A stretch of 37,939 nt of DNA from a virus: the IMG/VR virus record IMGVR_UViG_3300024520_000217, positions 1-37,939 of that record. One strand, given 5' to 3'. Positions 13,385 to 37,939 of this stretch are shown here, piece by piece. Numbering within the stretch: position 1 is the first letter of the stretch; every line of letters starts with the position of its first letter. The notes below the pieces were generated by a model, which saw only the letters and a list, made by a program, of their open reading frames with translations, made no database searches and was not told the origin of the DNA. A program made the translations under genes and the position numbers.

Positions 13385-13406
13385 ATAGCGCAGGGAAGGA
13401 ACCAAC

Positions 13407-14258
13407 ATGGGCAATGAACGAGACCTGACATACAAGAGCATCGACCAGATTCCGGTGAGTACGGACACCCCAGCGTCAGGCGATTTCCGCCTGTGGTGGG
13501 ACGCGGTTGCAAAGGAGTGGAAGAAGCAGGACGCCTCCACGGGTGATGCGGCTTTCGATGAGCTTGCCGTTGACGACCTGACGGTGACTACAGGTGCCAC
13601 CTTCTCGGGTGCAACGATTGCCGACCTCGGCACGGTCACTGCGGCAACCTTCGCAGCCGGCACCATTGCCGACCTCGGCACAGTCACGACGGCAACGTCT
13701 ATCACGACCGATGCGCTGGTAGCGGGTACCGCCGCGACGTTTGCAGGCGGGACCATCGCGGACCTCGGCACGGTCTCGGCAGCTACGGCAATCACCACGA
13801 CCGCGTTGACTATCGCAGCCCGCCCAATGGGTCGTGCTCCAGTGGCACTCGATGCGACAGACAGCATCACCGTCGCAGAGCACGCGAACCGCATCATGTA
13901 TTGCACGACAGCCGGAGCCATGACGTGGACCCTCCCCGCAGCAACGGGAACAGGCGACTTCTACATGTTCCTGATGGGCATTCTGGCAACGGGCAACCAC
14001 GTGATTGTCTGCTCCGAGACGACCACACACCGAATGATCGGGTCGAACACCGTAGCCGATGGCGACACGCTGTTCCTCCCTGCCGCGTTCAAGCCCGGCG
14101 CCAGTGACGATACGTTCACATGGAACGGCGGGACCACGGGTGGTGAACTCGGCGACTGGGTGAAGATGACAGACGTTGCAACGAACAAGTGGCTTGTTGA
14201 AGGTGCCGCGCAGACACAGACTGGCGAGACCCCGACAACGCCGTTCAGCAACACGTAA
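13407..14258 (+). CDS. Head decoration or fibre-like beta-repeat protein
   Basis: The ATG follows GGAAGGA. The 283 residues start with a domain containing FRLWWDAVAKEWKKQ, then at least three copies of a motif like (A/G)TIADLGTV joined by Thr/Ala-rich strands (about residues 70-132). The repeats suggest a beta-solenoid shaft. The end resembles a compact beta domain (MTWTLPAATGTGDFYMF). Located between scaffold and capsid, it is probably a capsid surface fibre or decoration, but this is inference. Confidence 0.6.
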   Translation: MGNERDLTYKSIDQIPVSTDTPASGDFRLWWDAVAKEWKKQDASTGDAAFDELAVDDLTVTTGATFSGATIADLGTVTAATFAAGTIADLGTVTTATSITTDALVAGTAATFAGGTIADLGTVSAATAITTTALTIAARPMGRAPVALDATDSITVAEHANRIMYCTTAGAMTWTLPAATGTGDFYMFLMGILATGNHVIVCSETTTHRMIGSNTVADGDTLFLPAAFKPGASDDTFTWNGGTTGGELGDWVKMTDVATNKWLVEGAAQTQTGETPTTPFSNT

Positions 14259-16574: not shown

Positions 16575-19448
16575 GTGCCGAAGGTTTCACAACTCGTCAA
16601 CTCCTTCAACGGCGGAGAGCTTGCGCCTGAGTTCCACGGGCGCACTGATACCAAGAAGTACAACAGCGGCGCTGCAAGTATCGAGAACTTCGTCGTACAT
16701 CCTGAAGGGGGTCTGCATCGGCGGAGCGGTACTCGCTTCGTAGATGCCGCCTTCGACTCGTCCAAGAAGTCGCGCATGATTCCCTTCATCTTCTCGACGA
16801 CCCAAGCGTACATGCTGGAGTTCAGTGAGTACGTAATCCGCGTATTTGCTGACGAGGTGCGGGTTGACGTAGACGACCACGAGTTTTTGCCTGCAGTGGT
16901 TGACACGACTGCCGAAGAAATAAACATCGCCGACCACGGGTACGTGCACAACCAAGGCCCGTTCCGCTTGACGAACGCTGGCGGTGGATTGCCTGCGGGT
17001 CTCGCTATCGATACCGACTATTTCATGTCGATGCCGCAGGCGAAGACGTACACCGCAGCCGATGTGGTCGCGGGGGCTGGCGGCACAATCACGTTCTCGA
17101 CGGCCCATAACTATTCTCCGCAGCAGGGTCCGTTCAGGATGACGGCGGCTGGCGGCATGATGGTAGGGCACCCACAAGCGATTACAGATTATTATGTAAT
17201 AGTCTCCAGTCCCACTGCGATACAGATAAGCGCGACCGCCGGCGGCGGCGCACTGTCGTTGTCGGTGCCGCAAGACGATGGCACTGGCGTGTACACATTC
17301 GCTCCGACCGGAGATTACCTGCGCGACAAGTTCGCGCTGGCGATTGCTGTAGATGGGGCTCCAATAGACATCACAGGACAGGGCACCGGCACGCACACAA
17401 TCACACCGAATCCACTTGGGACCCCGACGGGTCTGCCGCTTGAGATACCGACGCCGTATGCCGAGTCGGAGTTGTATGAGATACAGTACGTGCAGTCTGC
17501 TGACTTCCTGTTCATCGACCACAAAGACCATAGGCCTGCACAGCTCACACGCGCAGGGAATACGAAGTGGGCGCTGGATTTTACGAATATCCTAGATGGC
17601 GCATTCACGGAGCCAGAAAACGCTGACACGAGTTCCCCTATGCTCTTCTCGGCGACCGCTACGACTGGCGTAACTGCCTTTGCTTTTAATGCCGGAGTGG
17701 TGTTGACGGTGGAGGATATAGGGAGGATTCTCAGGATAAGGCATAGTGCCCAAATCGGTGTCGCAGAGATAGTCGGGATAGATACGAATCTCGGCCCGCC
17801 GTTCCGATTCGGTTCTATGAACGTCATATCCGATCTGGCTAGCACCGGCGCCACCTCTACGTGGCGGATGGGTGCTTGGCATACTGGCAATTGGCCTTCG
17901 TCCCTGTCATTCTTTGAGCAGCGGTTGGCACATGGCGGCGAAGCGGCAACGCCTCAAACTCTGCACGGCAGCAATACGTCCGCGTTCAACTTGTTCGCCC
18001 CATCAGAGGTTGACGAGGAGGTACTGGCTACCAACGCCGTCAACTTCACCATTGCAATCAACCAAGTCAACGCAATCCGCTGGATGGCCCTGCACAATCG
18101 ATTGATTATTGCGACATCAAACGCGCTGTTCACTGCCCGCGCATCATTCGACGGAGAGCCGATAACCCCGACGAACATCCAAGTCCAGAAGATTTCCGAT
18201 ATCGGCGCACTTGGCATCTCGCCTGTCAGCATCAACGATGAATTGGTGTACGTCACCGCGAACAGTCAGAGCCTCCGCGGCTTTACGCTTCACCGCGATT
18301 CAGACACAGTGTCCCCAGTAGACATCACGCTGCTGGCAAAGCACATCTTCGGTAGAACTCTCATCGTCCAAGACATGGCGTACCAGCAGGACCGGCAGTC
18401 AGTCCTTTGGGTGGTCCGGGGCGACGGGGTGCTAGCGGCAGTCACCTACGTGCCAGACCAAGAAGTCTTCGGTTGGCATCGGCACATCGTTGGAGGCAAC
18501 TTCGGGTCGGGCACGGCCACGACATTTGCCGCAGCCACGATCGATGCCGATGAAGACACCATCACGTTCACGCTGGAGCATGGGTGGCGAACCGGGCAAG
18601 GTCCGTTCACGTTGACAACGGACGACACCCTGCCGACAGGCACTGCGGTGAACACGAACTACTATGTGCGGGTTGTCGATGTCAACACCGTGAAACTCAC
18701 GACGATGCCCGATCCAGATGGCGCAGTCATCGACATGACGGATGCTGGAGTAGGTACGCACACCATCACTGAGTCGGGCGCCGCTGTCGTGGAATCAGTC
18801 GCCGTCATCCCGGCACCGAATGCCACACATGACCAAGTCTGGATGAGCGTGAAGCGGACCATCGGTGGCTCAACTGCTCGGCACATTGAGTTCTTCGAGG
18901 ATGAATGGCTGTCAGGCACCGATACGGAAATGCGGTACGTGGATTCCGCTCCCGTTGCCTACTCCGGCGGCGCAGTATCGTCCATCAGCGGACTCGACCA
19001 TCTGGAAGGTGAGACGGTGCAGATTCTCGCGGGTGGCGCCGTGCATCCCTCCCGGGTCGTCTCGAGCGGAGCAGTCACGCTGACCGGCTCGTTCACTGAC
19101 GTTCTGGTGGGGCTCCGGTACATCTCGGAGCTCGAAACCCTCAGGTTTGAGCCGCCCGACCCGGAAGGCTCCTCCATGGGCAAAATGGCGAGAACCGATC
19201 ATGTGGTGTTGCGCCTATTCGAGACCATCGGCGGTGAGATTGGCCCCGACATCGACAGCATGTTGCCGTTGGTCCTCAGGGCTCCCGGAGCTCCAATGGA
19301 TGAATCTACAGCGGCGCTCACCGGGGACCACAAAGTCGCGGTTTCCGGGGCATTCCAACGGGAAAAGCGGCTGTTCATACGGCAAAACCAGCCGTTACCG
19401 CTGAATTTGCTGTCAATGAACATTATGAGCAGCACGGGGCAACGCTGA
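16575..19448 (+). CDS. Tail nozzle / tubular protein B-like, with repeated beta inserts
   Basis: The gene starts with GTG three bases after the previous stop. The 957-residue protein opens with the family signature NSFNGGELAPEF and FVVHPEGGLHRRSGTRFV, followed by FSTTQAYMLEFSEYVIRVF. A repeated domain is inserted: HGYVHNQGPFRL, HNYSPQQGPFRM and HGWRTGQGPFTL mark three copies, two of which have a tail like GAPIDITGQGTGTHTI. These may be exposed binding domains. Near the end it returns to nozzle-type sequence. It builds the tail tip through which DNA leaves. Confidence 0.85.
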   Translation: MPKVSQLVNSFNGGELAPEFHGRTDTKKYNSGAASIENFVVHPEGGLHRRSGTRFVDAAFDSSKKSRMIPFIFSTTQAYMLEFSEYVIRVFADEVRVDVDDHEFLPAVVDTTAEEINIADHGYVHNQGPFRLTNAGGGLPAGLAIDTDYFMSMPQAKTYTAADVVAGAGGTITFSTAHNYSPQQGPFRMTAAGGMMVGHPQAITDYYVIVSSPTAIQISATAGGGALSLSVPQDDGTGVYTFAPTGDYLRDKFALAIAVDGAPIDITGQGTGTHTITPNPLGTPTGLPLEIPTPYAESELYEIQYVQSADFLFIDHKDHRPAQLTRAGNTKWALDFTNILDGAFTEPENADTSSPMLFSATATTGVTAFAFNAGVVLTVEDIGRILRIRHSAQIGVAEIVGIDTNLGPPFRFGSMNVISDLASTGATSTWRMGAWHTGNWPSSLSFFEQRLAHGGEAATPQTLHGSNTSAFNLFAPSEVDEEVLATNAVNFTIAINQVNAIRWMALHNRLIIATSNALFTARASFDGEPITPTNIQVQKISDIGALGISPVSINDELVYVTANSQSLRGFTLHRDSDTVSPVDITLLAKHIFGRTLIVQDMAYQQDRQSVLWVVRGDGVLAAVTYVPDQEVFGWHRHIVGGNFGSGTATTFAAATIDADEDTITFTLEHGWRTGQGPFTLTTDDTLPTGTAVNTNYYVRVVDVNTVKLTTMPDPDGAVIDMTDAGVGTHTITESGAAVVESVAVIPAPNATHDQVWMSVKRTIGGSTARHIEFFEDEWLSGTDTEMRYVDSAPVAYSGGAVSSISGLDHLEGETVQILAGGAVHPSRVVSSGAVTLTGSFTDVLVGLRYISELETLRFEPPDPEGSSMGKMARTDHVVLRLFETIGGEIGPDIDSMLPLVLRAPGAPMDESTAALTGDHKVAVSGAFQREKRLFIRQNQPLPLNLLSMNIMSSTGQR

Positions 19449-19888
19449 TGTGGCGTGAAACCAAATACGAAGATTTGCACCGAATACCGCTATCAGATGA
19501 CCCAACTGATGCGGATATGCGGTCGATTCTGACCGATTCGGACGATACGCGCGATTTGCTGCGTGAGAATGCCAGAACCTGGGAAGAAGAGGACGGCAGG
19601 GTCATCGCGATTGTCGGGGTAGCGCCCATGTGGAAGGGCGTCGGAACCGTCTGGACAATGCTCTCTGATGAGGCTAGGGACCGCGGTGTGCCGCTCACAC
19701 GAGGCGTTCTGAGGTTCCTGCGCATGCTGTACCGGGAGCGCGGCTATTGGCGGTTACAGGCGACTACAGTGCGCCGAGACGAGCCTGCGCGGCTATGGAT
19801 TCTGCAACTCGGGTTCGGCTACGAGGGCACCATGGTTGCCTATGGCCCTGACGGTCAGACGCACGATATGTACGCGAGGGTCGAATAA
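19448..19888 (+). CDS. GNAT-fold protein, T7 gp13-like internal virion protein
   Basis: The ATG overlaps the nozzle stop. The 146-residue sequence fits the acetyltransferase-like family found at this place in podoviruses (T7 gp13, DUF2833 type): VIAIVGVAPMWKGVGTVWTML, then a helix with LTRGVLRFLRMLY, and LWILQLGFGYEGTMVAYG near the end. Whether it is an active acetyltransferase is unknown; in T7 the protein is needed for particle assembly. Confidence 0.8.
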   Translation: MWRETKYEDLHRIPLSDDPTDADMRSILTDSDDTRDLLRENARTWEEEDGRVIAIVGVAPMWKGVGTVWTMLSDEARDRGVPLTRGVLRFLRMLYRERGYWRLQATTVRRDEPARLWILQLGFGYEGTMVAYGPDGQTHDMYARVE

Positions 19889-20289
19889 TGGCTATCGCAG
19901 GGTTGGTTCTTTCAGGCATCAGCGCCGCAACGCCCATGCAGGGCGGGATATCAGCGCAAATGGACGCTGCCGAACAAGCGAAGTTGCTCAGCGTCATCGG
20001 CGAGATCGAGGCGTCTGACAGGCGACGAGCAGGCCGGAAACTGATTGCAGAGCAACAGGTGGCATTCGCAGGCTCCGGCGTGGACATACAGACCGGCTCA
20101 CCGCTTGACGTGCTCGGAGACACGGTGGCGGAAATCGAACTGGATGCACTGAGAGCCAAATTCGCCAGACAGACTCAGGGCTTCGCGACTGCGCAGCGCG
20201 GTCAGCAAGCACAGACTCAAGGGGCTTCTGCCGGTCTCGGTACGATTCTCGGCGGTGTGAGCAGATTCGCATCTAGCAGGGGCAGGTGA
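19888..20289 (+). CDS. Internal virion protein, T7 gp14-like
   Basis: The gene is coupled to the GNAT gene. The 133-residue product starts with a hydrophobic Gly/Ala/Ser region (MAIAGLVLSGISAATP), then a long Ala/Glu/Arg helix and a Gln/Gly-rich end, as in small ejection proteins such as gp14 that form a pore in the outer membrane. The pattern RRAGRKLIAEQQVAFAGSGVD and GSPLDVLGDTVAEIELDAL is typical of this family in podoviruses. Confidence 0.75.
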   Translation: MAIAGLVLSGISAATPMQGGISAQMDAAEQAKLLSVIGEIEASDRRRAGRKLIAEQQVAFAGSGVDIQTGSPLDVLGDTVAEIELDALRAKFARQTQGFATAQRGQQAQTQGASAGLGTILGGVSRFASSRGR

Positions 20290-20292
20290 CGC

Positions 20293-22398
20293 ATGCCTAG
20301 AGTGCCCACAGCCAGAACGACCACGGGAGTGCAGCTGACCCTGCCCGATCCGGCTGCTGCGCTTCAGACTGCTCAGAGCGTTGCTGGTGTGTTTGATGCG
20401 GCTGGCGGGTTGGTTGCCCAGTTCGCCGAGCGGCGAAACCGGCAAAGGGCCATCGATGAATCGAACGAGGCAATCGCTGGATTCACGAGGGGCCTTGACG
20501 AACTCGACCAGCAGGTGGTGCAGGGTGATGTTATCGCAGACATCACTGCCAATTTCGATACAGGCAGCGAGGCGCTCAGGGAGCAGTTTGGTGGTGGTAT
20601 CAGGAGCAAGGCGGGGCAGCAACGATTCGATGACATGTCAACGCGCCTCGTCACCGCTCATCGGGCAATTGTTGGGCAGAAGCAATTCACACGCGAGCAG
20701 GTCGCAGGACGTGCAGTTTTGGACGATGGCCTAGACGCCGCCATCGATTCCGTCATCATTGCGCCGCACAAGCTAATCCGAGACGAAAACACCGCCAACG
20801 GCTTGGCGATGATTGACGAAACAGAGCACCTGCTGGCAGAAGAGAAGCCGGCAGCCCGCGAGGCATTCCTCAAGAATATCGATATCCGCACAATCACCCG
20901 GCTGGTTGACTTGGCAGATGCTTCAAAGGACGAAGCCGAGGCAATGGGACACCTCGGCGTGGCGGCGGAAATCCTGAAGGACCCGGAACGAACGCCGAAC
21001 CTCAGCAGCGCCGAACGGACCACGCTGCGCCGCTCGGTGCAGGCAGAACTCGCCGACGCCACTGCACGATTCAATCGTGGCGAAGTGAGAGCCTTGCGCA
21101 AAGACATCGCTACCGTCGAGACGCCTGAGGAAGCCGCGATAATTACCGACAAGATAACGACCCTCCTGGATGAAGGGGCTATCGGGGACCCCGGAGCAGC
21201 GCAGTTGGACGAATTGCTGCGCAGTAGGCTGGCTACGATGGCATCCGCAGGCGCTGGTGCGATTAGCATCGGGGTTGCGAGGCGTCTCGGGATCCCAGTA
21301 GACCCGAAGAACCGCAAGCAAGTAGACGACTACTACAAGAATATCTTCTTGCCTGAGTTGGCTGGCAAAACGATGGAAGAGGTGGATGACGCCGTTGTCG
21401 AACTCGTCGGTGACATCAATATTCTGCCCCCCACAGTGGAGAGCAACCTGCGGACTGCCGCGAATACTGACAACCCTCAGCTTGTCGCGCAGGCAGCGCA
21501 GTTGTTCGTCGAGTTGAAGCAGGCGTCACCACAGGCAATGCGTAGCGCGGTCGTTTCTGATTCCACTTCGATTCTGCTGGAGAACATCGATGAAGCAGTC
21601 CGGCTGAACGTGCCTGAGGCCGAAGCACTGAAACGGGAGCGGGAACGGGAGGCGCTCAGCCCGTCCGTGTTGGCTGGCAGGCAGACGCAGTACCGGGAAT
21701 TCCTCAAGGAAGAGTCGAACGAGTCATGGATTAACGACAACGTTGGCACTTTTGATTTGGTGCGTCCATTCGCATTCGACCCAGGCGTCGATGTCATTGG
21801 GCCAGACCTCGAGGGGATGTTCGATTCCGAAGTCAAGCGGATGTTCCTGAAGGACCCTAATATCGACAAGGCTAGGACTCGAGCCCTCGAACGGGTGGCT
21901 CGCGTAGTCGGCGTGTCGCAGGTCGGCGGAGAGAACCGGCTCATGTACTTGGCCCCCGAGCTGATGTACCCCGGGTTCAATGGTGACTCCGAAGAGATTA
22001 CCCGGCAACTCATCGAAGACGTGCGCGCCGCGAATCCTCCAGAGATTGCGGGACTTGATGACGAAGCATTGGCGGCCAGACTGATTATCAGCGCGGACTC
22101 AGACAGCATGAGAGAGAACGACGGCTTCCAGTTGACGCCCGGGTACAACGTGTCCCTGAGAGGTCCCGCAGAGGACGATAGCCCGGGGCCGTTGATGGGC
22201 ATTCGCTTCTTCCCGGAGCAGGATGAGTTCGCAGCACGGCAAGAGGTGGACGCGATCAAGGAAGCAGCGGCAGCGCATGAAGCGCAGCAACAGGTGCGAC
22301 GAGCACAGAAGACACGGGCCGCCGCTGGTGACGTTGCGGGCGCAGAGGGAATCAGGCTGCGAGAGGCGGGCATATTCACACCGGAGGCCGGGCCTTGA
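20293..22398 (+). CDS. Internal virion protein, T7 gp15-like
   Basis: The 701-residue, mostly helical and acidic protein lies between gp14-like and gp16-like genes, the conserved order of ejection proteins. It begins MPRVPTARTTTGVQLTLPDP, followed by long Ala/Glu/Asp/Arg helices. No enzyme motif is visible. It is probably packed inside the head and leaves before the DNA to build the periplasmic tunnel. The assignment is from order, length and composition. Confidence 0.75.
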   Translation: MPRVPTARTTTGVQLTLPDPAAALQTAQSVAGVFDAAGGLVAQFAERRNRQRAIDESNEAIAGFTRGLDELDQQVVQGDVIADITANFDTGSEALREQFGGGIRSKAGQQRFDDMSTRLVTAHRAIVGQKQFTREQVAGRAVLDDGLDAAIDSVIIAPHKLIRDENTANGLAMIDETEHLLAEEKPAAREAFLKNIDIRTITRLVDLADASKDEAEAMGHLGVAAEILKDPERTPNLSSAERTTLRRSVQAELADATARFNRGEVRALRKDIATVETPEEAAIITDKITTLLDEGAIGDPGAAQLDELLRSRLATMASAGAGAISIGVARRLGIPVDPKNRKQVDDYYKNIFLPELAGKTMEEVDDAVVELVGDINILPPTVESNLRTAANTDNPQLVAQAAQLFVELKQASPQAMRSAVVSDSTSILLENIDEAVRLNVPEAEALKREREREALSPSVLAGRQTQYREFLKEESNESWINDNVGTFDLVRPFAFDPGVDVIGPDLEGMFDSEVKRMFLKDPNIDKARTRALERVARVVGVSQVGGENRLMYLAPELMYPGFNGDSEEITRQLIEDVRAANPPEIAGLDDEALAARLIISADSDSMRENDGFQLTPGYNVSLRGPAEDDSPGPLMGIRFFPEQDEFAARQEVDAIKEAAAAHEAQQQVRRAQKTRAAAGDVAGAEGIRLREAGIFTPEAGP

Positions 22399-25300
22399 CT
22401 CTCAACAAACGAGTCCTGCTGTCCCCGACCCGGAGTCATATACCGGGCACGCAGCCGCCTGCGATGGTGACTGAGCGGCCTAGCTTCGGTCAGACGGTGC
22501 AGGATGCGTTTGCGGTGCAGAACACTCTGGTTGCTGGCTTCCAGTTTGCTCAGGAGTTGTCTGCGGGCGCCGATGACTTGGTAATCGAAGGCTTCGACCC
22601 GTTCGACGGCATAGAAGGAACCATATTCGAGGAGTTCCCTGAATCTCTCATTGGCGTCGTCACTCCAGACGAGAAGGACCGGGCAGAGGCGAAGCTCAAT
22701 GAGGAGTTGGCAGCACGCGAACGGCTGGCAAACTCCGGGATACTCGGGATTGTCGCTGAATTCGGCGCTGGCGCACTCGACCCGCTGCTGTTGCTCCCGG
22801 TTGGTGGTCAGGTGAAGGTTGCTCGGTCGATGGTGCTCGCAGCCAAAGCAACCCGGACGGCGCGTGCTGCTGAGCTTGGCAAGGTTGCGCTAACGGGCGT
22901 GACGAGTGCCGACCAAGTGAGCCTGCTGACAGCGGGCATCACAACTGCACGCGCTGGCCTGCTCGGCCAAACTGCGTCAGAGGCAGTTCTGCATTCCTCG
23001 CAAGACGCCAGGACATTCGGGGAGAGTGCGGCGAACGTGACGGCGGGTATGGTACTTGGCGCAGTGCTTGGCTCCGGCGTTGCGCATCTATCAGCGAAGC
23101 AACGCAAGGCGGCGCTGCAAGTCATAGAGGAGGACTTTGGAAAGGTCGCTGGTGGCTCTCCCGAATTCGATGCCCCGGTGATTACCCAGCAGGACTTGGT
23201 GCGGCCATCGGACGGCAGCCCCTCCGCTGCAGAAATCAAAATACAGAACGCGCTGGTGAGAGGCATTGAGAGTGCCGCATCTAGCCCAGTTATTCGCAAC
23301 TTGACATCAACGCCACTGATAGAAACGATTTCGCTGAGTCACTCTGGCAAGGCAAAGCAGGTCGGGCTTGAGATGATGGATTCCCCGGTGCGCGTAGAGG
23401 GCTTCAACCCAGGCCCCACGATGGAGTCTGAGATTCGTGGCACTATGGACGCGCTTCGCGCTCAGATGTACGGCGCACGAGATGAACTCTACACGCGGTA
23501 TAGAACTCGCATCGCCAAAGAGAAGGGTGAGGGTGGTGCGTTTGTCTCGGAGGGTGGCAGGGCGAGAGCCGGAATCATCAGGGCAACGGATGCGGTCACA
23601 GGTCGCGCCAAGGAAAGGGGGATTCTGTCTCGTGATGAGTTTGAGGTGCTCGCCGGCAAGTCGTCTCGGTCCGCTGATAGCGGCGTGCCGGAGGTTGACG
23701 AGTTCGCCACGTTTCTAGATGACATCATCGTCAAGCCGATACTTGAGGACGCTACCGCCTTGGAGATGTTCCCGGAAGAAGTGATGGCACTGGGGCCGAA
23801 GGGCTCTCGGCGGTATCTAACCCGCTCGTACCTGAAAGAGAAGCTGATAGCAGAAGAGGACGTCGTCAAGTCCCAGAAGATTAAGCCGTGGTTGTCGGGT
23901 GCTATAGACGACGATGAGATTGACGCGATCCTGAAGGCTGCCAAGTTCAAGAAGAAGGACATCAAGCCGCCACCTCCCAAGGGGGAACTGGAATTCTTGT
24001 CTCCAATGGCTCGCCGTTCATTCACGCCGGAGCAGGCTACGGCACTCGACGAGGCAATCGACCGGCAAGTGTTCTCTACGTTCGAGAACCTCACTGCGAG
24101 TACCCGAGGCAGGTCTCCGTACGAGCGGCAGCCCGTGGGCAAGGGGAGCCCGTTCAAGGAACGTGCAATGGCTTGGGCTGATAGTGAAGTCGAGGAGTAC
24201 CTAGAGCAAAACATCGTGGTGCTGATGGAGCGTTATTTGAACACAATGGTCCCAGACATTGCTGCCATGCGAAAATTCGGCAGCCTCGATTTGGACGTGC
24301 AGTTCAATGGCAAGGGTGGTATCGCCGAGGAGTACGCAGCGGTGCGAGCGGCGGCGAAGACGCCGAAGGAGCGCCTGAAGATTCAGAAGCAACAGGAGCG
24401 GGACAAAGACAACCTTCTCGGGGCGATGGCGGTTCTGCGGGGCACCAACGCCCTGCCGACCGACCGACCCGGCAAGGCGCTTGTGACTGCCGCAAGGGGA
24501 GTCCGTGCGGTCAACTATCTGAGCATGGGCGGCGGCTTCGTCATCAACTCGTTTGTGGACCCCGGAATGATTGCAATGAAGAATGGAGTGGCACGCACAT
24601 TCCGCACAGGGATAGTCCCGTTTGCAACGCATCTCAACGCAACGAAGATGGCGAGGGCTGAGTTGAACAGGCTCGGAGCCGCGTTGGACTTGCAAGTCGG
24701 CACTCGCAGTGCATCTCTCGCTGACATCGGCAACGACTTCGCACAGAACGGCGCCGACCAAGTAGCGCAAGCGATGTCAAACCGAATGTCAATCGTAAAT
24801 CTGATGGCTCCGTGGAATGCGCTGTGGCAGGGTGTGTCCGGCAACGTCAATATGACCAAGATGATTGAATCTCTCATCAAGGAAGGCAAGGGAACTGCCA
24901 CTGCGAGGGAGATTGCAGACCTCGAATTCGTGCGGCTCACCCCCGAAATGCGTGGACGCATCAGGGAGCAGTTGTCCCTTGATGGCGGCATGGTGTCCGA
25001 AGGCCCGCTGAAGTGGTCAGACACCGAAGTCTGGACGGACTTGGAAGTGCGTAGGGCGTGGGGCAGTGCGGTGCGTTCGTCAATCAACTCTCAGATTCTC
25101 GATCCAGGCGTCGGCTCCGTCCCATCCATAATGAATAAGGAGTGGGGCAAGACAGTATTCCAGTTTCAGCGGTTCATGTTCGCCGGTACGCATAGCGTGC
25201 TGATGTCAGGCATTCAGGACTGGCGGTTCGTGTCCACATGGACAGGACTCGCCGGGATGGTCGGTCTCGGCATGATGGTCGAATCGATAAAGAACGCCCA

Positions 25301-25694
25301 GAACGATAGGCCGAACCCCGAAGGCGTCGGTGATTGGGTGCTGGCCGCAATGGACCGCACCGGCCTATTCGGAGCCTATGGTCAGGTTTACAATGTCACC
25401 GCTGGAGTTCTCGGGAAGGAAGGGCTCTCTAGCCGCTTCGCTGCTCGAAATCTCTTCTCAACGGCATTGGGTCCTTCGGCCGGCACTGCACAGACAGCGC
25501 TCCTGCTTCCGTCTAGAGTCAGGGGCGCCGAGGCCACAGGCGGCGACTTCTCAGACAAGGACCTCAACAGAATCCGCCGACTTCTTCCATACAACCAAGT
25601 CCCATACTTCCAATGGGGCGTTGACCAAATAGAGGAAGGTATCGCTAGTGGTCTCAACCTTCCGAAGAAGCGCAAACGGAGGCGCACCCAATGA
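22395..25694 (+). CDS. Internal virion protein, T7 gp16-like ejection protein
   Basis: The TTG start overlaps the previous stop (TTGA) with GGAGG eight bases upstream; an ATG at 22464 is the alternative. The 1099-residue protein is helical, with Ala-rich hydrophobic segments near residues 110-240, a basic middle, and a C-terminal part with many Gly/Met/Trp residues that may enter the membrane. T7 gp16 has an N-terminal murein transglycosylase; I see no such motif here. The protein ends with a basic KKRKRRR run. Confidence 0.8.
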   Translation: MTLNKRVLLSPTRSHIPGTQPPAMVTERPSFGQTVQDAFAVQNTLVAGFQFAQELSAGADDLVIEGFDPFDGIEGTIFEEFPESLIGVVTPDEKDRAEAKLNEELAARERLANSGILGIVAEFGAGALDPLLLLPVGGQVKVARSMVLAAKATRTARAAELGKVALTGVTSADQVSLLTAGITTARAGLLGQTASEAVLHSSQDARTFGESAANVTAGMVLGAVLGSGVAHLSAKQRKAALQVIEEDFGKVAGGSPEFDAPVITQQDLVRPSDGSPSAAEIKIQNALVRGIESAASSPVIRNLTSTPLIETISLSHSGKAKQVGLEMMDSPVRVEGFNPGPTMESEIRGTMDALRAQMYGARDELYTRYRTRIAKEKGEGGAFVSEGGRARAGIIRATDAVTGRAKERGILSRDEFEVLAGKSSRSADSGVPEVDEFATFLDDIIVKPILEDATALEMFPEEVMALGPKGSRRYLTRSYLKEKLIAEEDVVKSQKIKPWLSGAIDDDEIDAILKAAKFKKKDIKPPPPKGELEFLSPMARRSFTPEQATALDEAIDRQVFSTFENLTASTRGRSPYERQPVGKGSPFKERAMAWADSEVEEYLEQNIVVLMERYLNTMVPDIAAMRKFGSLDLDVQFNGKGGIAEEYAAVRAAAKTPKERLKIQKQQERDKDNLLGAMAVLRGTNALPTDRPGKALVTAARGVRAVNYLSMGGGFVINSFVDPGMIAMKNGVARTFRTGIVPFATHLNATKMARAELNRLGAALDLQVGTRSASLADIGNDFAQNGADQVAQAMSNRMSIVNLMAPWNALWQGVSGNVNMTKMIESLIKEGKGTATAREIADLEFVRLTPEMRGRIREQLSLDGGMVSEGPLKWSDTEVWTDLEVRRAWGSAVRSSINSQILDPGVGSVPSIMNKEWGKTVFQFQRFMFAGTHSVLMSGIQDWRFVSTWTGLAGMVGLGMMVESIKNAQNDRPNPEGVGDWVLAAMDRTGLFGAYGQVYNVTAGVLGKEGLSSRFAARNLFSTALGPSAGTAQTALLLPSRVRGAEATGGDFSDKDLNRIRRLLPYNQVPYFQWGVDQIEEGIASGLNLPKKRKRRRTQ

Positions 25695-26701
25695 CCATAT
25701 CCGCAACAGACACATCAGTTCAGTACACGGGAGACGGCACCGACGCGGTACTGTCTACGGTGTTCACGTATTTCGCTGATGGCGATGTGGTCGTTACTCA
25801 GCGCATCACGGCAACGGGTGTCGAGGCCACAATGGTCAAGGGCACTCATTACAGCATTGCAGGAGGCTCTACGACGGGTGCGGTAGGCAACGTGACGGTG
25901 ATTACCGGCGCGACAAACTTCACCACAGCCATGACGTGGACTATCAAGAGAGCCGTGCCGTTGACCCAGAGCACTGACTACGTGGAGAACGATAGATTCC
26001 CGGCGGCTTCCCACGAGACTGCGCTTGACCGTGCAACGATGCAAGCCCAAGACGTTGACTCTCGCAGGTCGATAACGGCTCCAGTAACGGACCTCACGTC
26101 GATATCGCTGGAACTGCCGTCCTCCGTTGACCGGGCAAGCAAGCTGATGTCGTTCGATGCCTCTGGGGCCGCATCGGTGGCGACGCCGACAACCGTCGGG
26201 TATGGCAAGGTTCGTCTGGCAATCAAGATAGCGTCAACCGATACGACCCTTACGCTTACCGCTGAAGACTGGCCGTCCACATACAACAGCGTGGAGTTGG
26301 AATTCTGCGGGCTGCTCGCAGACGCGGTAAGTGCAAAGCTCGAAATCAGACCGATTGACACGGGAGTCGTGCAGACCACAAACATGAGCATCATGGAGAG
26401 CCGCAACGTGGCTGGCACAGTCACGACGCCTACCGGCACCGACTGGATGCTTGACTTTGCAACTTCAACGGGCACCGACGACAGGATGAACGGTAGCGTC
26501 ATATTCACCAACAACAACGGCTTCCTGAACGGGCACGGACAGTTCACGTATCGTTCAACCACGAATCATGTGCATACGATTGTGTCGTATCAGAGGCATA
26601 CAACCATCGGCGCACAGTGGGACGGTTTCACGGTGCACTTCGATGGAGTTTCAACCATCGCATCAGGCGAAGTTAGACTTTGGGGCATCCCCCGAACATA
26701 G
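25691..26701 (+). CDS. Tail fibre with T7-type N-terminal domain
   Basis: The gene is coupled by ATGA. The first 120 residues fit the T7 fibre attachment domain: VQYTGDGTDAVLSTVFTYF, GTHYSIAG, WTIKRAVPLTQSTDY and RFPAASHETALDRATMQAQ. The rest (to residue 336) is beta-rich and short compared with T7 gp17, ending in GEVRLWGIPRT. The fibre binds the nozzle and contacts the cell. The shortness suggests further receptor-binding parts come from the genes that follow. Confidence 0.85.
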   Translation: MTISATDTSVQYTGDGTDAVLSTVFTYFADGDVVVTQRITATGVEATMVKGTHYSIAGGSTTGAVGNVTVITGATNFTTAMTWTIKRAVPLTQSTDYVENDRFPAASHETALDRATMQAQDVDSRRSITAPVTDLTSISLELPSSVDRASKLMSFDASGAASVATPTTVGYGKVRLAIKIASTDTTLTLTAEDWPSTYNSVELEFCGLLADAVSAKLEIRPIDTGVVQTTNMSIMESRNVAGTVTTPTGTDWMLDFATSTGTDDRMNGSVIFTNNNGFLNGHGQFTYRSTTNHVHTIVSYQRHTTIGAQWDGFTVHFDGVSTIASGEVRLWGIPRT

Positions 26702-26711
26702 GAGAAACATC

Positions 26712-27113
26712 ATGCGTTACTTGAACATCGCGATTGCGGCACTCGTGCTGCTCCTCGCTGGGGGTGCCAGCGCTGCGGATTGGACCACTGTGGACGGGGG
26801 CTCTGTGTCATGCACCTCGCTCAAGAAGGACGGCATCTGTTGGCAGAGCGCCATCGCTGCGGATTCGTCTGCAATCAGTGTCCGGCTGTGCAAGACGCTC
26901 ACAATCGTTGTGTATGGAACTGGCGCAGACATCATGCCGCAGACATGTACCAACAGGGCGTGCACCACGGCTGAGGACTTGCTGTCCACTGCGCTCACGG
27001 GCGATTCGCCGAATATGTTCATGACTTCTGGCGCGTCGCCTTGGGAGCTCGTGCGGATTGATTGGACTGCCGGCGGGGCAGCGCCCACCGTGTCCATCAA
27101 GTGCGGAGGCTAG
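26712..27113 (+). CDS. Small secreted Cys-rich protein
   Basis: The ATG at 26712 follows AGGAGAAACATC. Residues 1-21 (MRYLNIAIAALVLLLAGGASA) form a Sec signal peptide with a likely cut after ASA. The mature part, about 112 residues, is beta-rich with Cys in VSCTSLKKDGICW, RLCKTL, QTCTNRACTT and IKCGG, suggesting disulfides formed outside the cytoplasm. Signal peptides are unusual for tail-module proteins. It is the first of four such genes. The family is not recognised. Confidence 0.7.
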   Translation: MRYLNIAIAALVLLLAGGASAADWTTVDGGSVSCTSLKKDGICWQSAIAADSSAISVRLCKTLTIVVYGTGADIMPQTCTNRACTTAEDLLSTALTGDSPNMFMTSGASPWELVRIDWTAGGAAPTVSIKCGG

Positions 27114-27114
27114 T

Positions 27115-28011
27115 ATGCGGCACTTCATTGCACTGCTCGCGTGCCTGTGCCTTGTGAGGGCTGGTCCCGTCATGGGGCAGGGCGCGGGGGTGAGCCTTGA
27201 CCATCCGATTCAATCGGACTCAGCAACCAAGATGTCTCTCGGGATGGTGCCGCAGTTTCGTACTCAAAACAAATTCGGCGAGACGGACAACCTAGACGCA
27301 GCGGCTACGGATATCTGGGATGGCTCCACAGCCGAGATTGTAGCAATCAGCGGGACAATCATATGGGTTCCTCCGAATGCTGCTCGCATTCATGCGCTTG
27401 TGTCGTCTTCCCTTGCTGATAGCGATTCCGGAGGTGCTAACCCGCAATCCACCGGGATGCGAACAGTCGAAGTCTGTGGGTTGGAAACTTGGACATCCAC
27501 ATCCGCAACGACTGAGACAGTCATTCTTGACGGGACCACAGCAGTCAACACTGTGAACTCATACGTCATCATTTACCGGATGACCGGGTTGGCTTGGGGT
27601 TCCGGTGGTGTGAATGCCGGAAGCATAACGGCAGACGCCGCAGTGGATGGCACCACGACTGCGGCAATTACCATAGGCAACAACCAGACCCAAATGCTGA
27701 TATACGGCATCTCCAGCACGATGAAGTTGCGCGTGGACAATTTCAGGTCGTCCCTCATCAAGACATCGGGGGCGAACCTCCGGGCGACTGGCAAAGTCCT
27801 TTGGATGGCTGACCCTGCTGCGAACGCAGCTGCCAACACTGCTTGGGTGAACAAGGAAAGTTTTGAATTGACCACTGACGACAGTTGGATAAGGCCATAT
27901 TCACCGCCAAAGAAGTTCGACGGTCCCGGTATTATCAAGCTGCAACTCGTGGGCAGTGGAAACGACATCGATGCGATTGCCACGTTTGATGCCACCATCA
28001 AGGACGACTAG
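27115..28011 (+). CDS. Secreted structural-type protein
   Basis: The ATG at 27115 lies just after the previous stop. A signal-peptide-like N-terminus (MRHFIALLACLCLVRAGP) is visible. The mature part is beta-rich and resembles a widespread but uncharacterised phage tail-region family: a GMRTVEVCGLETWTSTSAT segment, ETVILDGTTAVNT, YVIIYRMTGL, NAGSIT and a strand IGNNQTQMLIYGI. It may be a fibre part or an exported surface protein. Confidence 0.65.
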   Translation: MRHFIALLACLCLVRAGPVMGQGAGVSLDHPIQSDSATKMSLGMVPQFRTQNKFGETDNLDAAATDIWDGSTAEIVAISGTIIWVPPNAARIHALVSSSLADSDSGGANPQSTGMRTVEVCGLETWTSTSATTETVILDGTTAVNTVNSYVIIYRMTGLAWGSGGVNAGSITADAAVDGTTTAAITIGNNQTQMLIYGISSTMKLRVDNFRSSLIKTSGANLRATGKVLWMADPAANAAANTAWVNKESFELTTDDSWIRPYSPPKKFDGPGIIKLQLVGSGNDIDAIATFDATIKDD

Positions 28012-28020
28012 GAGAACGAC

Positions 28021-29121
28021 ATGAGACACCTACTGACAATCTTGGCGTTGCTCCTGATGGCTACGCCTGCTTGGGCATACAGTACGGGGCAGTCACTCGC
28101 GATGGCTCGTATCGACATCACGAATGCCGACGCGGTGACCGGCATAACGACTACGTATATCCCGTATGGAGCGTCGGGGGCACTCGCCGCCAACTCAGGC
28201 TTCACGTACACAGTGGCAACGGGTGACGTCCGGGCGACGTCGTTCACGGCAGACAACGTGGACGGTACGAATTCGCACGGGTTCTTTGACAACCCCGGCG
28301 GCTATACCTGCGCGGCTCCCGGCGACAACACGGGCTCGCTTGCGATGGACTCCAGTATTGATGCCGATGGAGACCAACTGTACTTCTGCGACGAGAACGG
28401 CAACATGATGCGAATCGTCCGGGAGGACACTGGCGGAACCACGATCCTAGTCGGGAAACTCAGCGTGCCCGGACAGCTCAACATCACGGGTACGGATGAC
28501 TTTAAGGCTGCGCAGTTCGTTTTGACCGAGACCACCCCTAACACTGAATACATCTTGAAGATGCGCGTGTACACGAACGGCAACAAGTCAGACCGCATTT
28601 GGATTGGAAACGGCCCGACACAAATCAAATCTGGCGGAGAGGCAGGAGATGCGGGTCTGGAAATCTTCGATGAATCCGATGGCGCTGAGACCATTACGAT
28701 CACGCCTCCAACGTCGATAGGCGCTAATTACACACAGACTCTACAGGAGATTACGGGGTCTGTTGGAATCGAAGAGAAGCGCCCCGAGGCGATTATTGGC
28801 GCCACTCTTGGCCCAAGTGATATCTTGGACAAGTGGTATCTCTGCACGAATGCAGGCGGCTGCAATATCACGTTGCCTGCCTTGGGTGCCGGAGACCATT
28901 TCTGCGTATACGATACTGATGGCACTGTAGGCATCACGTTGACCCCTGCAGCCGGAGTTACATTCTGGTTGCCAGATGGCACTACGACAGACTCGGCGGG
29001 CGACGTAATCACTTCAGACACGGGCAATTTGGCAGGAGACCGGATATGCGTAGTCGCGCTTAACGCCACGACATTCTTCACGTATGCCGAACGAGGCACA
29101 TGGACGGACGGTACGCCATGA
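28021..29121 (+). CDS. Secreted beta-rich protein, fibre-like
   Basis: The ATG follows AGGAGAACGAC. A very clear signal peptide (MRHLLTILALLLMATPAWA) ends at a typical AWA cut site. The 366-residue product has Gly/Thr/Asp-rich strands, a DGDQLYFCDENGNMMRIV segment and a C-terminal domain starting near TLGPSDILDKWYLCTNAGG with CNITLPALGAGDHFCVYDTDG, a pattern seen in phage fibre ends. Its stop overlaps the sulfatase start (ATGA), linking the two genes. Confidence 0.65.
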   Translation: MRHLLTILALLLMATPAWAYSTGQSLAMARIDITNADAVTGITTTYIPYGASGALAANSGFTYTVATGDVRATSFTADNVDGTNSHGFFDNPGGYTCAAPGDNTGSLAMDSSIDADGDQLYFCDENGNMMRIVREDTGGTTILVGKLSVPGQLNITGTDDFKAAQFVLTETTPNTEYILKMRVYTNGNKSDRIWIGNGPTQIKSGGEAGDAGLEIFDESDGAETITITPPTSIGANYTQTLQEITGSVGIEEKRPEAIIGATLGPSDILDKWYLCTNAGGCNITLPALGAGDHFCVYDTDGTVGITLTPAAGVTFWLPDGTTTDSAGDVITSDTGNLAGDRICVVALNATTFFTYAERGTWTDGTP

Positions 29122-30788
29122 TTGCTAGGCTACTCATCTGCGTACTGCTCCTCATCGCTGCTCCAGCGGTAGCGGTTGTTGACCAATTTGTGGTCATCTT
29201 CTTGGATGACGATAGAAGCAGAGCGATGGCTGGGTACAGCGTTGCAGCCGGAGTGGATAGCATCACCGGAGCGTTGCCTCTGACGCCATCACTTGATGCA
29301 ATCGCCTTGGCGGGATTCGCTCATGCCAACATCAAGACCAGTGCCGTATGTTCACCCTCTCGCGCAAGACTGCTTGACTACGGACCCGTGGGCAATCCGC
29401 AGAATCCATACGGCCGGACAGTAGTACCAGAGGACCCGGACACGACCGTCCAAGTCGAGTTGGGGTTCCACAACTTCGCACGGGAGGCAAAGGCTGACGG
29501 GTGGAATACAGCCTTCTTCGGCAAATGGCATATCTCAAACTACAAGTTCCTGAACGATGGAGTCACTGCCGTCAAGCAGGCTGGATTCGATGAAGCGCAG
29601 GCTGTATTGGTGGGAAACCCAACAAATGAAATCCCGGGAATCGACTACGACGACTCGGCGACCATCGGTGACGTATGGGCAGACTGCCAGGGTCACAAGT
29701 TCTTTCCGTACACAGACATAGACGGGACTATCACTTGGACGCATACCCATTCCTCAAAGGTCATCTTCGATGCGGTTGACACGTACATGACAGCAGCCGC
29801 AGCGACGGGCAGTGGCAAATACCTGATATTCGTGGAAACGTCAGCACCACATATACCGCAAGAGACCGGCGAGGGTGGCGCGGTAGAGTGCAATGGCAAT
29901 ACAGAAACGCAAAACGATTACCCGCCCGGCGAGTCGTTCGATGCTGGCGAAACCAAGAATGATGTCTATTTGGCGAATATCGAGTATATCGATACGCGAA
30001 TGGGAACACTCATCACTGACCATATCTTGTCGGACAACGGGTACACGGACCACATGGTCGTATCGCTGACGGACAACGGAACTCAAGGAAGCATCAGCCT
30101 GATGGCCGAATGTGATGCGTCCCCAGGGAAAAAGAACACGCCGTACATATGCGGGACCACAAGCCACTTCGTCGCTGCGGGTCCAGGGATTATAGCTAAC
30201 GAGCATCTGACGAATCGGTTGAACTCCATCGATGACATACCCGCGACACTGCTTTCACTGATGGGCAGCAAATCGACCACTCCATGGGGATTGGACTTCA
30301 GCGATTGCATGACGCAGGAGAACTCGCAGTCTGCAGCATCTTGCCGGCACACCCGAGATTCAGTGACATGGGCTGAGTGGAAGGAACTTGGCGGCAGCGA
30401 TGGAACTCTCACCAGGCCGCCGAGGCTCACGGATGCCAACGGCGTATGGACAAACTACGAGGTGGCTTCAGAGGTGTGGCTCGAGGGCGGTGCTCACGTC
30501 ATACTGCATCGAATCTACGATCCATCGAACAGCATGAACTTCGTGAAGGAGAGTCTGTACCCAGTAGATGACGGCGAGGACGGCGGCGCACTCGGCGGAA
30601 TGTACTCAACCGAGGATACAGTCTGGGACGTAGTGGCCGGCGGCGAGATTGCCGAGGACGGTACAGACTGGGACATCACTGCAACGGACGCTGCTAAGGC
30701 GGCGCTAGTCCGAGCACACCGAGACCTCGACCACCAGTGGGACCGAGACGGAGCCCCTACCCCGACTCTCGGCGGCGGGTCATTCTAG
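29118..30788 (+). CDS. Secreted arylsulfatase-family enzyme
   Basis: Sulfatases (type S1, alkaline phosphatase fold) remove sulfate esters. The 556-residue product has a signal peptide (MIARLLICVLLLIAAPAVA) and the full set of motifs: metal ligands IFLDDD (30-32), TPSLDAIALAGF, the signature CSPSR (Cys78, the formylglycine site) followed by ARLL, AFFGKWH (135-138), APHIP near 244, and SLTDNG (318-321). Host formylglycine-generating enzyme would be needed to mature Cys78. It follows the fibre and three secreted proteins, suggesting action on sulfated host polysaccharide. The substrate is unknown; sulfatase homology is very clear. Confidence 0.92.
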   Translation: MIARLLICVLLLIAAPAVAVVDQFVVIFLDDDRSRAMAGYSVAAGVDSITGALPLTPSLDAIALAGFAHANIKTSAVCSPSRARLLDYGPVGNPQNPYGRTVVPEDPDTTVQVELGFHNFAREAKADGWNTAFFGKWHISNYKFLNDGVTAVKQAGFDEAQAVLVGNPTNEIPGIDYDDSATIGDVWADCQGHKFFPYTDIDGTITWTHTHSSKVIFDAVDTYMTAAAATGSGKYLIFVETSAPHIPQETGEGGAVECNGNTETQNDYPPGESFDAGETKNDVYLANIEYIDTRMGTLITDHILSDNGYTDHMVVSLTDNGTQGSISLMAECDASPGKKNTPYICGTTSHFVAAGPGIIANEHLTNRLNSIDDIPATLLSLMGSKSTTPWGLDFSDCMTQENSQSAASCRHTRDSVTWAEWKELGGSDGTLTRPPRLTDANGVWTNYEVASEVWLEGGAHVILHRIYDPSNSMNFVKESLYPVDDGEDGGALGGMYSTEDTVWDVVAGGEIAEDGTDWDITATDAAKAALVRAHRDLDHQWDRDGAPTPTLGGGSF

Positions 30789-30796
30789 GAGACCAG

Positions 30797-31045
30797 ATGC
30801 TAGACCGAACACCGCAGGCCAAGACCAAGACGGCAGCCACGGCGGCTGTGTCGGCTCCCATGATCGCGCTGGCGCTCGAGGAGTTCACTCCCGAGCTCGG
30901 CCCCGGCAAGGTGACCCTTATAGTCTATGCCGTGACGGTCCTCGTGGGCTTCGTGGGCTCCACGGCAAGGGACTGGCAAAACGACGTTGAGACCCGTGGC
31001 GAGAAGCCCGGGTTCTTGCTGAGACAGATTGCCCATATAGGCTAG
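30797..31045 (+). CDS. Holin-like small membrane protein
   Basis: The ATG at 30797 follows TAGGAGACCAG. The 82-residue product has a weak hydrophobic segment (about 15-28), a strong one (residues about 38-56, KVTLIVYAVTVLVGFVGS) and a charged end. The size and place between tail genes and spanin-like genes fit a holin that opens the inner membrane, but no family signature is certain. Confidence 0.5.
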   Translation: MLDRTPQAKTKTAATAAVSAPMIALALEEFTPELGPGKVTLIVYAVTVLVGFVGSTARDWQNDVETRGEKPGFLLRQIAHIG

Positions 31046-31054
31046 GGGGTTGGC

Positions 31055-31309
31055 GTGTCTGATGATGACCGAATGCTTGGCGAGTTGGCCCAGTCCGTGA
31101 AGACGCTCACGGGAGAGGTGCAGATGTTGCGGAAGGAGACGAAAAAGCACGGCGAGGCATTGGCGGTGCTCGCGTCTACTTGCAACAATATCGTCGGGTC
31201 TCGGTCATTTTCGACCAAGGCTATGGGTGGCGCAGGCGCTGCAGGCGCTGGGGTAACAGCATTCTGCCATGGCGTCTGGTCATTCCTAACAGGGGGGACG
31301 CAGCAATGA
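31055..31309 (+). CDS. Coiled-coil membrane protein, possible lysis component
   Basis: The gene starts with GTG after AGGGGGTTGGC. The first 45 residues are a coiled coil (LAQSVKTLTGEVQMLRKETKKHGEAL). The end has a Gly/Ala-rich hydrophobic segment (GGAGAAGAGVTAFCHGVWSFL). This layout, soluble coiled coil then one membrane segment, resembles XhlA-like lysis-associated proteins. The stop overlaps the next ATG. Confidence 0.5.
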   Translation: MSDDDRMLGELAQSVKTLTGEVQMLRKETKKHGEALAVLASTCNNIVGSRSFSTKAMGGAGAAGAGVTAFCHGVWSFLTGGTQQ

Positions 31310-31557
31310 CAAAGGAACTCATCACACTGCTGACCATCGCGGCGCTATCGACCACAGCCTGCAAGACGTTCTCACAGGAGAACTGCGAGGACCTCATTGG
31401 CACGCTGACGAGTCTCGCTGCGGAAATCAGTAACGATGTGGCGAAGGATTCGGTCGCCGAGAAGGTTGGGCGATATGCGGACATCATCGGCAAGGCTCGC
31501 CGGCTTGGGTGCTCGCTTGCCGACTTGCCCACCGAGGCGGAACTGGGAACTGACTGA
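31306..31557 (+). CDS. Possible lipoprotein, outer-spanin candidate
   Basis: The ATG is coupled to the previous stop. The 83-residue product begins MTKELITLLTIAALSTTACK, a signal-like segment ending at Cys19 that could be lipid-attached, although the box (TTAC) is weak. The mature part is helical with two more Cys. Its place directly before a membrane coiled-coil gene fits an outer/inner spanin pair, which fuses the membranes in Gram-negative lysis. This is inference. Confidence 0.5.
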   Translation: MTKELITLLTIAALSTTACKTFSQENCEDLIGTLTSLAAEISNDVAKDSVAEKVGRYADIIGKARRLGCSLADLPTEAELGTD

Positions 31558-31787
31558 TGGAGGTGTCTGCAGGACAGGGCGGCATCGTGGCGTTGCTCCT
31601 CACTGCCATCACAGGCGGCGGGACGATGTACGCCACCAAGACGGAGACGGCTAGTCAGGACCGCTGTATTGAGATTGTGCAGGCCCGGGTAGCAGCCGCC
31701 GAAAGTCAGCGTCAGGCCGACTTGGAGGCTCAGAGAATCAGCTACAACGCGCTGCAGTCGATGTGCGTGGAGATGTGTGGGCGTTAA
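31557..31787 (+). CDS. Inner-spanin-like coiled-coil protein
   Basis: The ATG overlaps the last base of the previous stop. The N-terminal region has a hydrophobic segment (GGIVALLLTAITGGGTMYA), then a coiled coil (VQARVAAAESQRQADLEAQ) and a Cys-containing end. This N-membrane plus periplasmic coiled-coil layout fits an inner-membrane spanin. The length, 76 residues, is short for the role. Its TAA shares a TTAA with the stop of the convergent next gene. Confidence 0.5.
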   Translation: MEVSAGQGGIVALLLTAITGGGTMYATKTETASQDRCIEIVQARVAAAESQRQADLEAQRISYNALQSMCVEMCGR

Positions 31788-32212
31788 CGGTTCGACGTAA
31801 TCTCAAGCAGGGGGTTCTCAATCTGCAGGAGCATTGCGTCGATGCGTGCGAGGGTCGAGGTTGAGCTCGTGACGCCTACGACTCCTCCGATGTTCGCAAT
31901 TGAATTGCCCACGGCAATGCAGCCTTCAACCTCGAGGGCGAAGTTCGCAGGGTGGATGAGACAGCCGAACCGTGGCATGTTCTCAAACTCGTACAGCGAT
32001 ACACTGTCTCCGATGATTGCCCATGACGCCGGATGCGCCTCGCTATCGTGCCGCTTCAGGTGGTACATGCCGGTGGGGATGCAGCTCTCGTTTGGCCTGT
32101 TGTGAGCCCACGGCCGTTCAACCGTGAAGAAGATGTCGCCCCAGATATAGAGCCTACCCCATGTGGCGTACACGTCGTGTCCGAATCTCTCGAGCCTGAC
32201 TATTTGAGTCAT
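31784..32212 (-). CDS. DUF5675-like protein, possible cell-wall enzyme
   Basis: The 142-residue product has the family pattern TVERPWAHNRPNESCIPTGMYHLKRH and LIHPANFALEVEGCIAVG. The His87 ... Gly97-Cys98 arrangement recalls the catalytic His ... Gly-Cys of L,D-transpeptidase-like folds, though this link is my inference. It adjoins the lysis cassette, and no standard endolysin is visible in the window, so it is a candidate for the missing wall-cutting activity. It is the last gene of a leftward operon. Confidence 0.7.
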   Translation of the reverse strand: MTQIVRLERFGHDVYATWGRLYIWGDIFFTVERPWAHNRPNESCIPTGMYHLKRHDSEAHPASWAIIGDSVSLYEFENMPRFGCLIHPANFALEVEGCIAVGNSIANIGGVVGVTSSTSTLARIDAMLLQIENPLLEITSNR

Positions 32213-37752: not shown

Positions 37753-37939
37753 GGCTGGGGGCTCTCTTCTACCGACTGCTCGCAATTGTCCCACTCAAGG
37801 CCGAGCGTTTCGGCCAGGTGGCGGGATTGCCAGTTGCGTTCCGCCGACCCCGCCGACCCCGCCGACCCCGCCGACCCCGCCGACCCCGCCGGCCCCGCCG
37901 CCGCCGCCGCCCCCCCCCCCCCCCACGCCGACCCCGCCC
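37749..37939 (-). CDS. Partial protein with Gly-Ser-Ala repeat linker
   Basis: The minus-strand frame runs in from the contig edge and ends with a TGA overlapping the next ATG. The reliable end reads ERNWQSRHLAETLGLEWDN and then an acidic tail. Upstream of it, a 9-base repeat encodes repeated Gly-Ser-Ala, probably a flexible linker, before the sequence dissolves into C-runs that are likely read errors. The N-terminus is missing and the family unknown. Confidence 0.5.
   Translation of the reverse strand, partial: AGSAWGGGGAAAAAGPAGSAGSAGSAGSAGSAERNWQSRHLAETLGLEWDNCEQSVEESPQP
37842..37939. repeat. 9-base tandem repeat and homopolymer at contig end
   Basis: CCGACCCCG-type 9-base units repeat about six times, then change into CCG units and a run of about 17 C, followed by the 9-base unit again. 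The first copies are in frame with the partial minus-strand gene. The long homopolymer is probably a sequencing or assembly artefact. Confidence 0.85.

Follow-up and report, generated by a model that had tools for sequence, protein, structure and literature searches.

Late genes and a block of predicted exported proteins

The window analysed here, the whole 37,939-base stretch of IMG/VR virus record IMGVR_UViG_3300024520_000217, is the genome contig of a T7/HTVC010P-like podophage of lytic type. Its genes follow a T7-like order, with terminase (phrog_2), portal (phrog_332), a protease-like protein, capsid (PF19821) and tail proteins A and B (phrog_394 and phrog_376), then internal virion proteins (phrog_308, phrog_418 and phrog_342), a gp17-like fibre and small membrane-like proteins. 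It is this set of portal, tail, internal virion protein and terminase families that identifies the podophage. The nearest isolates are HTVC010P-like pelagiphages, to which the portal protein is 35–36% identical. The gene preceding the major capsid gene contains three degenerate 60-nt repeats (13589–13786), and no tRNA gene was found in the window. The features from the tail genes onwards, with coordinates that count the stop codon of the sulfatase, are as follows.

16575..25694 (+), tail tubular protein B and internal virion protein genes (phrog_376, E 2.8e-163; phrog_342, E 1.4e-60; phrog_308; phrog_418)
25691..26701 (+), tail fibre of only 336 aa, T7 gp17-like over its N-terminal 120–130 aa (phrog_13893/6518/1640, E 3.5e-14 to 1.7e-13)
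26712..27113 (+), secA, small Cys-rich protein, predicted exported, 133 aa, 6 Cys; conserved homologues of 58% and 43% identity follow the fibre gene of two related phages
27115..28011 (+), secB, predicted exported protein, 298 aa (phrog_8198, function unassigned)
28021..29121 (+), secC, 366 aa with 6 Cys, predicted to be exported; 4-bp overlap of its stop with the ATG of the sulfatase
29118..30788 (+), S1-type sulfatase (P0001), 556 aa (PF00884, mapped residues, homologue in a related phage)
29118..29174 (+), predicted signal peptide of the sulfatase, MIARLLICVLLLIAAPAVA, cleaved after about residue 19 as judged by eye
29349..29363 (+), CSPSR formylglycine motif, sulfatase residues 78–82; Cys, Pro and Arg are identical in the related-phage homologue (CTPTR)
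30797..31045 (+), small protein containing a hydrophobic stretch and resembling a holin in appearance only, no family match
31306..31557 (+), small protein that looks like a lipoprotein, a possible spanin on appearance alone, MTKELITLLTIAALSTTACKTF, no family match
26712..29121, exported block by predicted signals; the corresponding blocks lie at 19282–21335 (L012), 1014–2082 on the minus strand (L016) and 12835–13727 (L027)

Four genes in a row carry predicted Sec signals, and the sulfatase closes the series. The initial annotation had placed it in a phage tail module; a place in the late module is supported, with the fibre on one side and putative lysis genes on the other. It had further put the gene directly after the tail fibre, which is incorrect as secA, secB and secC intervene. 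It had also described coupling to one secreted protein; this holds for secC, but understates a block in which all four genes bear predicted signal peptides. The signals were called by a hydrophobicity heuristic, which found none on the upstream structural genes. For the sulfatase the mean KD was 3.65 over 10 residues, with a positive n-region. The Sec signal peptide claimed earlier is thus retained as a prediction from this rule and from inspection by eye, and not from SignalP.

The Cys counts were six in secA, one in secB, six in secC and seven in the sulfatase, as against none in the portal, tail protein B, protein p701 and an internal virion protein. Across the predicted exported proteins of the window and of related phages the counts were mostly even (6, 6, 12, 6, 4, 4 and 4); secB has a single Cys, so that the disulfide pattern across the block is not uniform. 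From the predicted signals and Cys counts, we read the block as proteins that would fold in the periplasm or outside the cell.

A mostly Cys-rich block with predicted Sec signals was observed past a short T7-like fibre in four related phages, with secA in three of them. In one related contig (G005) the order is a fibre adaptor of about 165 aa, secA, a secC-like gene and a sulfatase; in another (G006) two fibre genes are followed by secA and a different exported protein, with no sulfatase; and a third (G007) has a pair of genes for exported proteins past its fibre gene. The N-terminal 128 aa of secC match the G005 gene just upstream of its sulfatase, and the secC C-terminus resembles a domain of an exported G007 protein (E 2.8e-4). 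No secB homologue was found in the related phage contigs examined, and secA, secB and secC had no match in the phage collection. The AlphaFold model of secA had a pLDDT of 50. We know of no description of such an exported block in phages. As a separate observation, the exported protein that precedes the G005 sulfatase (P0002, L012 19674–21335) carries a DUF3383-like stretch at residues 154–261 (E 1.9e-10); elsewhere, DUF3383 is known from the tail proteins of phages.

The sulfatase and its family

The open reading frame at 29118–30788 is intact. A second possible start exists at an in-frame ATG at 29100; 29118 is preferred, since a protein begun there opens with the signal peptide MIARLLICVLLLIAAPAVA and its ATG shares 4 bp (ATGA) with the stop of the upstream gene. 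The product matched PF00884 with E 3.7e-17 and 63 bits against a cut-off of 25 (E 1.1e-19 in a search of the whole virus record), and the alignment covered residues 25–383 of the protein and positions 4–300 of the 301 in the profile. The codon fit to phage core genes was −1.145 in frame, equal to that of the core genes themselves, as compared with −1.38 in the two other frames. The family match and the codon fit together indicate that this is not a chance reading frame.

Alignment with six bacterial-type sulfatases was used to map the active site, and 10 of the 10 expected residues were present: D30, D31, C78, R82, K136, H138, H245, D319, N320 and K339. They lie in the motifs D30-D31 (VVIFLDDDR), C78-S-P-S-R82, G135-K136-W137-H138, H245 (PHIPQ), T318-D319-N320-G321 and K339. 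Catalytic roles were assigned to these positions from what is established for S1 sulfatases, the Pseudomonas arylsulfatase among them. The intact motifs reported in the initial annotation (CSPSR with Cys78, the paired Asp, GKWH and TDNG) were therefore confirmed by the PF00884 match and the mapped residues, and the gene encodes an S1-type sulfatase that is catalytically complete in its residue set. An AlphaFold model built from a two-sequence alignment had a pLDDT of 30.

The enzyme shares with characterised S1 sulfatases (PF00884) the full N-terminal catalytic domain, CxPSR, GKWH, the metal-binding Asp and Asn residues and, by prediction, a signal peptide. It differs from them in several respects: identity is only about 25%, six of its Cys are specific to the phage lineage, about 130–150 C-terminal residues can be aligned to the phage homologue alone, and it is encoded by a phage lacking a gene for the formylglycine-generating enzyme (FGE). 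No FGE gene was found in the 15 phage records searched, so that a host maturase would be needed. The closest solved chains, by sequence only, were 7ALL (an arylsulfatase) and 7STT (an N-acetylgalactosamine-6-sulfatase), and the best PDB matches spanned mixed subfamilies. The protein did not match the NCBIfam sulfatase models. It matched PHROG 19870 with E 4.2e-8, and is much more distant from this family than ordinary bacterial-type sulfatases, which matched it at E 5e-42 to 3e-50. These last matches show that PHROG 19870, although labelled as of unknown function, is in effect a sulfatase family, and hence that ordinary-type phage or prophage sulfatases are present in the PHROG collection.

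A syntenic homologue and the rarity of the gene in phages

The G005 contig (IMGVR_UViG_3300024520_000416, 27 kb) was found through its tail tube protein B, which is 53% identical to that of the window. Its tail and internal virion proteins are 52–55% identical to those of the window, and its portal 63%. Its homologues of the fibre, secA and secC genes are immediately followed by a PF00884 gene whose product aligns with the window sulfatase over its full length at 31–33% identity. All ten active-site residues are identical in the two proteins (naive chance 1.2e-5 if conservation were random). All seven Cys of the mature protein are also common to both, and the six that are non-catalytic, C190, C258, C332, C345, C397 and C409 in the window protein, are absent from the six bacterial-type sulfatases compared. 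This identity at the active site and at the Cys points to selection for activity in the phage lineage, although two sequences are too few to permit a formal selection test.

The G005 homologue bears equally on whether the gene belongs to the phage at all. An assembly chimera, or bacterial DNA contaminating the contig, had been named initially as what would overturn the annotation, and such an origin has some precedent, since the sulfatase matches that we inspected in a public phage collection do resemble contamination. In the window, however, the sulfatase ATG overlaps the secC stop by 4 bp, the next gene begins 8 bp past the sulfatase stop and the codon fit is that of the core genes, while a homologous sulfatase occupies the same place in G005. 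We consider a chimera barely conceivable.

The initial annotation regarded sulfatases as rare in phages, and the searches agree. A tblastn search with P0001 of 50,697 phage records returned nothing at E ≤ 0.01 and only weak matches at E ≤ 10, with no credible relative. Single-protein scans of IMG/VR and GTDB contigs confirmed no close relative, and scans with a two-sequence profile recovered only the G005 contig, which was already known, and nothing in genomes. When a bacterial sulfatase was the query, 33 of the 50,697 phage records matched, 22 of them unannotated human faecal scaffolds. Four of the 33 were inspected. Three look like bacterial DNA: L007, which has four sulfatase genes; L051, in which chromosomal genes lie beside an anSME-like gene; and L050, labelled as a Campylobacter phage, with an AraC–transporter–sulfatase block. 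This last record (MG065691.1, 83118–83969; Campylobacter phage A11a, UNVERIFIED) seemingly holds a piece of enterobacterial chromosome that includes an arylsulfatase gene, and is likely to be contaminated. The fourth, L006, has a bacterial-like sulfatase.

Virus records whose tail, portal or internal virion protein links them to the window are mostly fragments that stop short of the region; among them, the sulfatase gene was present in the window and G005 only. The only two phages known to carry it are both metagenomic contigs. They suggest that some phages remove sulfate from the sugars around their hosts; in the open literature we found no published description of this activity in phages, or of such an exported block. 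Sulfatase chemistry in phages has been hinted at before, by phage genes resembling FGE (PMC10232697) and by sulfatases that a study of fish-gut cultures listed as auxiliary genes in putative prophage regions (PMC11077953); these cases are FGE-like proteins or metagenome annotations, without a conserved sulfatase of a late module. A ‘viral sulfatase’ from deep groundwater is soxB, and not an S1 sulfatase (PMC7940616). The window enzyme is an unusual, new form of a known family, and we found no description of such a setting in phages.

Possible roles

The reading that we prefer, to which we give about an even chance, is that this late podophage sulfatase acts outside the cytoplasm on a sulfated glycan as a member of an exported set, rather than as part of the tail. 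The protein would be made late, and a host FGE or anSME would convert Cys78 to formylglycine in the cytoplasm, before export. Sec would then export it, and it would fold in the periplasm with disulfides, to be freed there and at lysis. Its substrate would be a sulfated glycan on or around the host, from which it may strip sulfate esters, and desulfation may allow progeny to spread or to reach receptors more easily. The sulfatase would thus be one of the exported proteins encoded at the fibre locus. Capsule or matrix as the substrate is a guess. The crossing of the outer membrane before lysis, for which this reading does not account, speaks against it.

The initial annotation had instead suggested a tail-associated depolymerase. 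That label fits poorly, because S1 sulfatases remove side groups and do not cut the polymer backbone. Removal of capsule sulfate during adsorption by a virion-borne enzyme is still worth weighing, given that the gene lies after a T7-like fibre gene, that the fibre is short (336 aa, and about 165 aa in G005) so that other proteins may supply host binding, and that secC ends in a domain with a counterpart in a further phage of the same clade. Tails are assembled in the cytoplasm, however, and the predicted Sec signal, the six lineage-specific Cys and the Cys-rich exported neighbours all point to export; family searches (Pfam and PHROG) found no fibre-anchoring domain in the sulfatase. The four consecutive genes with Sec signals, and similar ones in three related phages, favour an exported enzyme, and we regard the virion-borne one as unlikely. 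Podophage tailspike depolymerases and deacetylases are likewise phage enzymes of surface glycans encoded near the fibre gene. They differ in lacking Sec signals and in being carried on the virion, as trimeric beta-helix or esterase proteins, whereas the sulfatase is predicted to be exported. Phage endolysins with a signal peptide or SAR sequence, such as Lys44 of fOg44, offer a precedent for a late enzyme exported through the host Sec system (PMC6116005); Lys44 differs in that it targets peptidoglycan for lysis and does not have a sulfatase fold.

An exported sulfatase might also destroy receptors by desulfating them on the infected cell and its debris, which would keep progeny from being trapped and bar rivals from adsorbing, by analogy with viral neuraminidase. 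Predicted export, late position and a host-recognition region would suit such an enzyme, and the sulfatase has diverged faster (33% identity to G005) than the portal (63%), tail protein B (55%) and an internal virion protein (53%), as host-interaction genes do and as would fit a role in host interaction more generally. A sulfated receptor is an assumption, however, and we judge this function improbable. Somewhat more doubtful still is an auxiliary metabolic gene, whose product would release sulfate or sugars from a sulfated polysaccharide to feed the infected cell. Bacterial S1 sulfatases are mostly catabolic, and the fish-gut prophage cases were listed as auxiliary; against this, the gene is late and beside putative lysis genes, its exported neighbours are without assigned function, and no sugar-degradation or transport gene accompanies it. 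The enzyme may, finally, have another activity of its superfamily, such as that of a phosphonate monoesterase or phosphodiesterase, in place of sulfate ester hydrolysis. Phosphonate hydrolases that use formylglycine exist, and the strong divergence (about 25% identity to characterised enzymes) and the lack of an NCBIfam sulfatase model match allow for this, but the TDNG Asp–Asn metal pair and GKWH are features of classical arylsulfatases, and we think such an activity very unlikely.

If active, the exported sulfatase would be a phage enzyme that acts on sulfated glycans without cutting chains and that relies on the formylglycine machinery of its host. Sulfated polysaccharides are common on the surfaces of algae and microbes, and their breakdown is often controlled by sulfatases, so that such phages could influence access to hosts and the turnover of matrix. 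The exported block at the fibre locus may be of wider interest than the sulfatase itself, and raises the question of whether proteins exported by Sec take part in host recognition or release in podophages. A broader conjecture, possible but tentative, is that this podophage clade has swapped or supplemented its long fibre with a Sec-exported, mostly Cys-rich cassette, including the sulfatase, whose members would work jointly on sulfated glycans outside the cell, or be added to the virion only once the cell has lysed. Such a cassette would be a host-surface-remodelling module of a kind not described for phages.

Two further features lie beyond the late operon. Just past it, on the opposite strand, 31784–32212 (−) encodes a DUF5675 protein (PF18925, E 2e-19). 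At the contig end, a short array of 9-base repeats (CCGCCGACC) at 37841–37921 runs into a stretch of C, possibly an assembly-end artefact.
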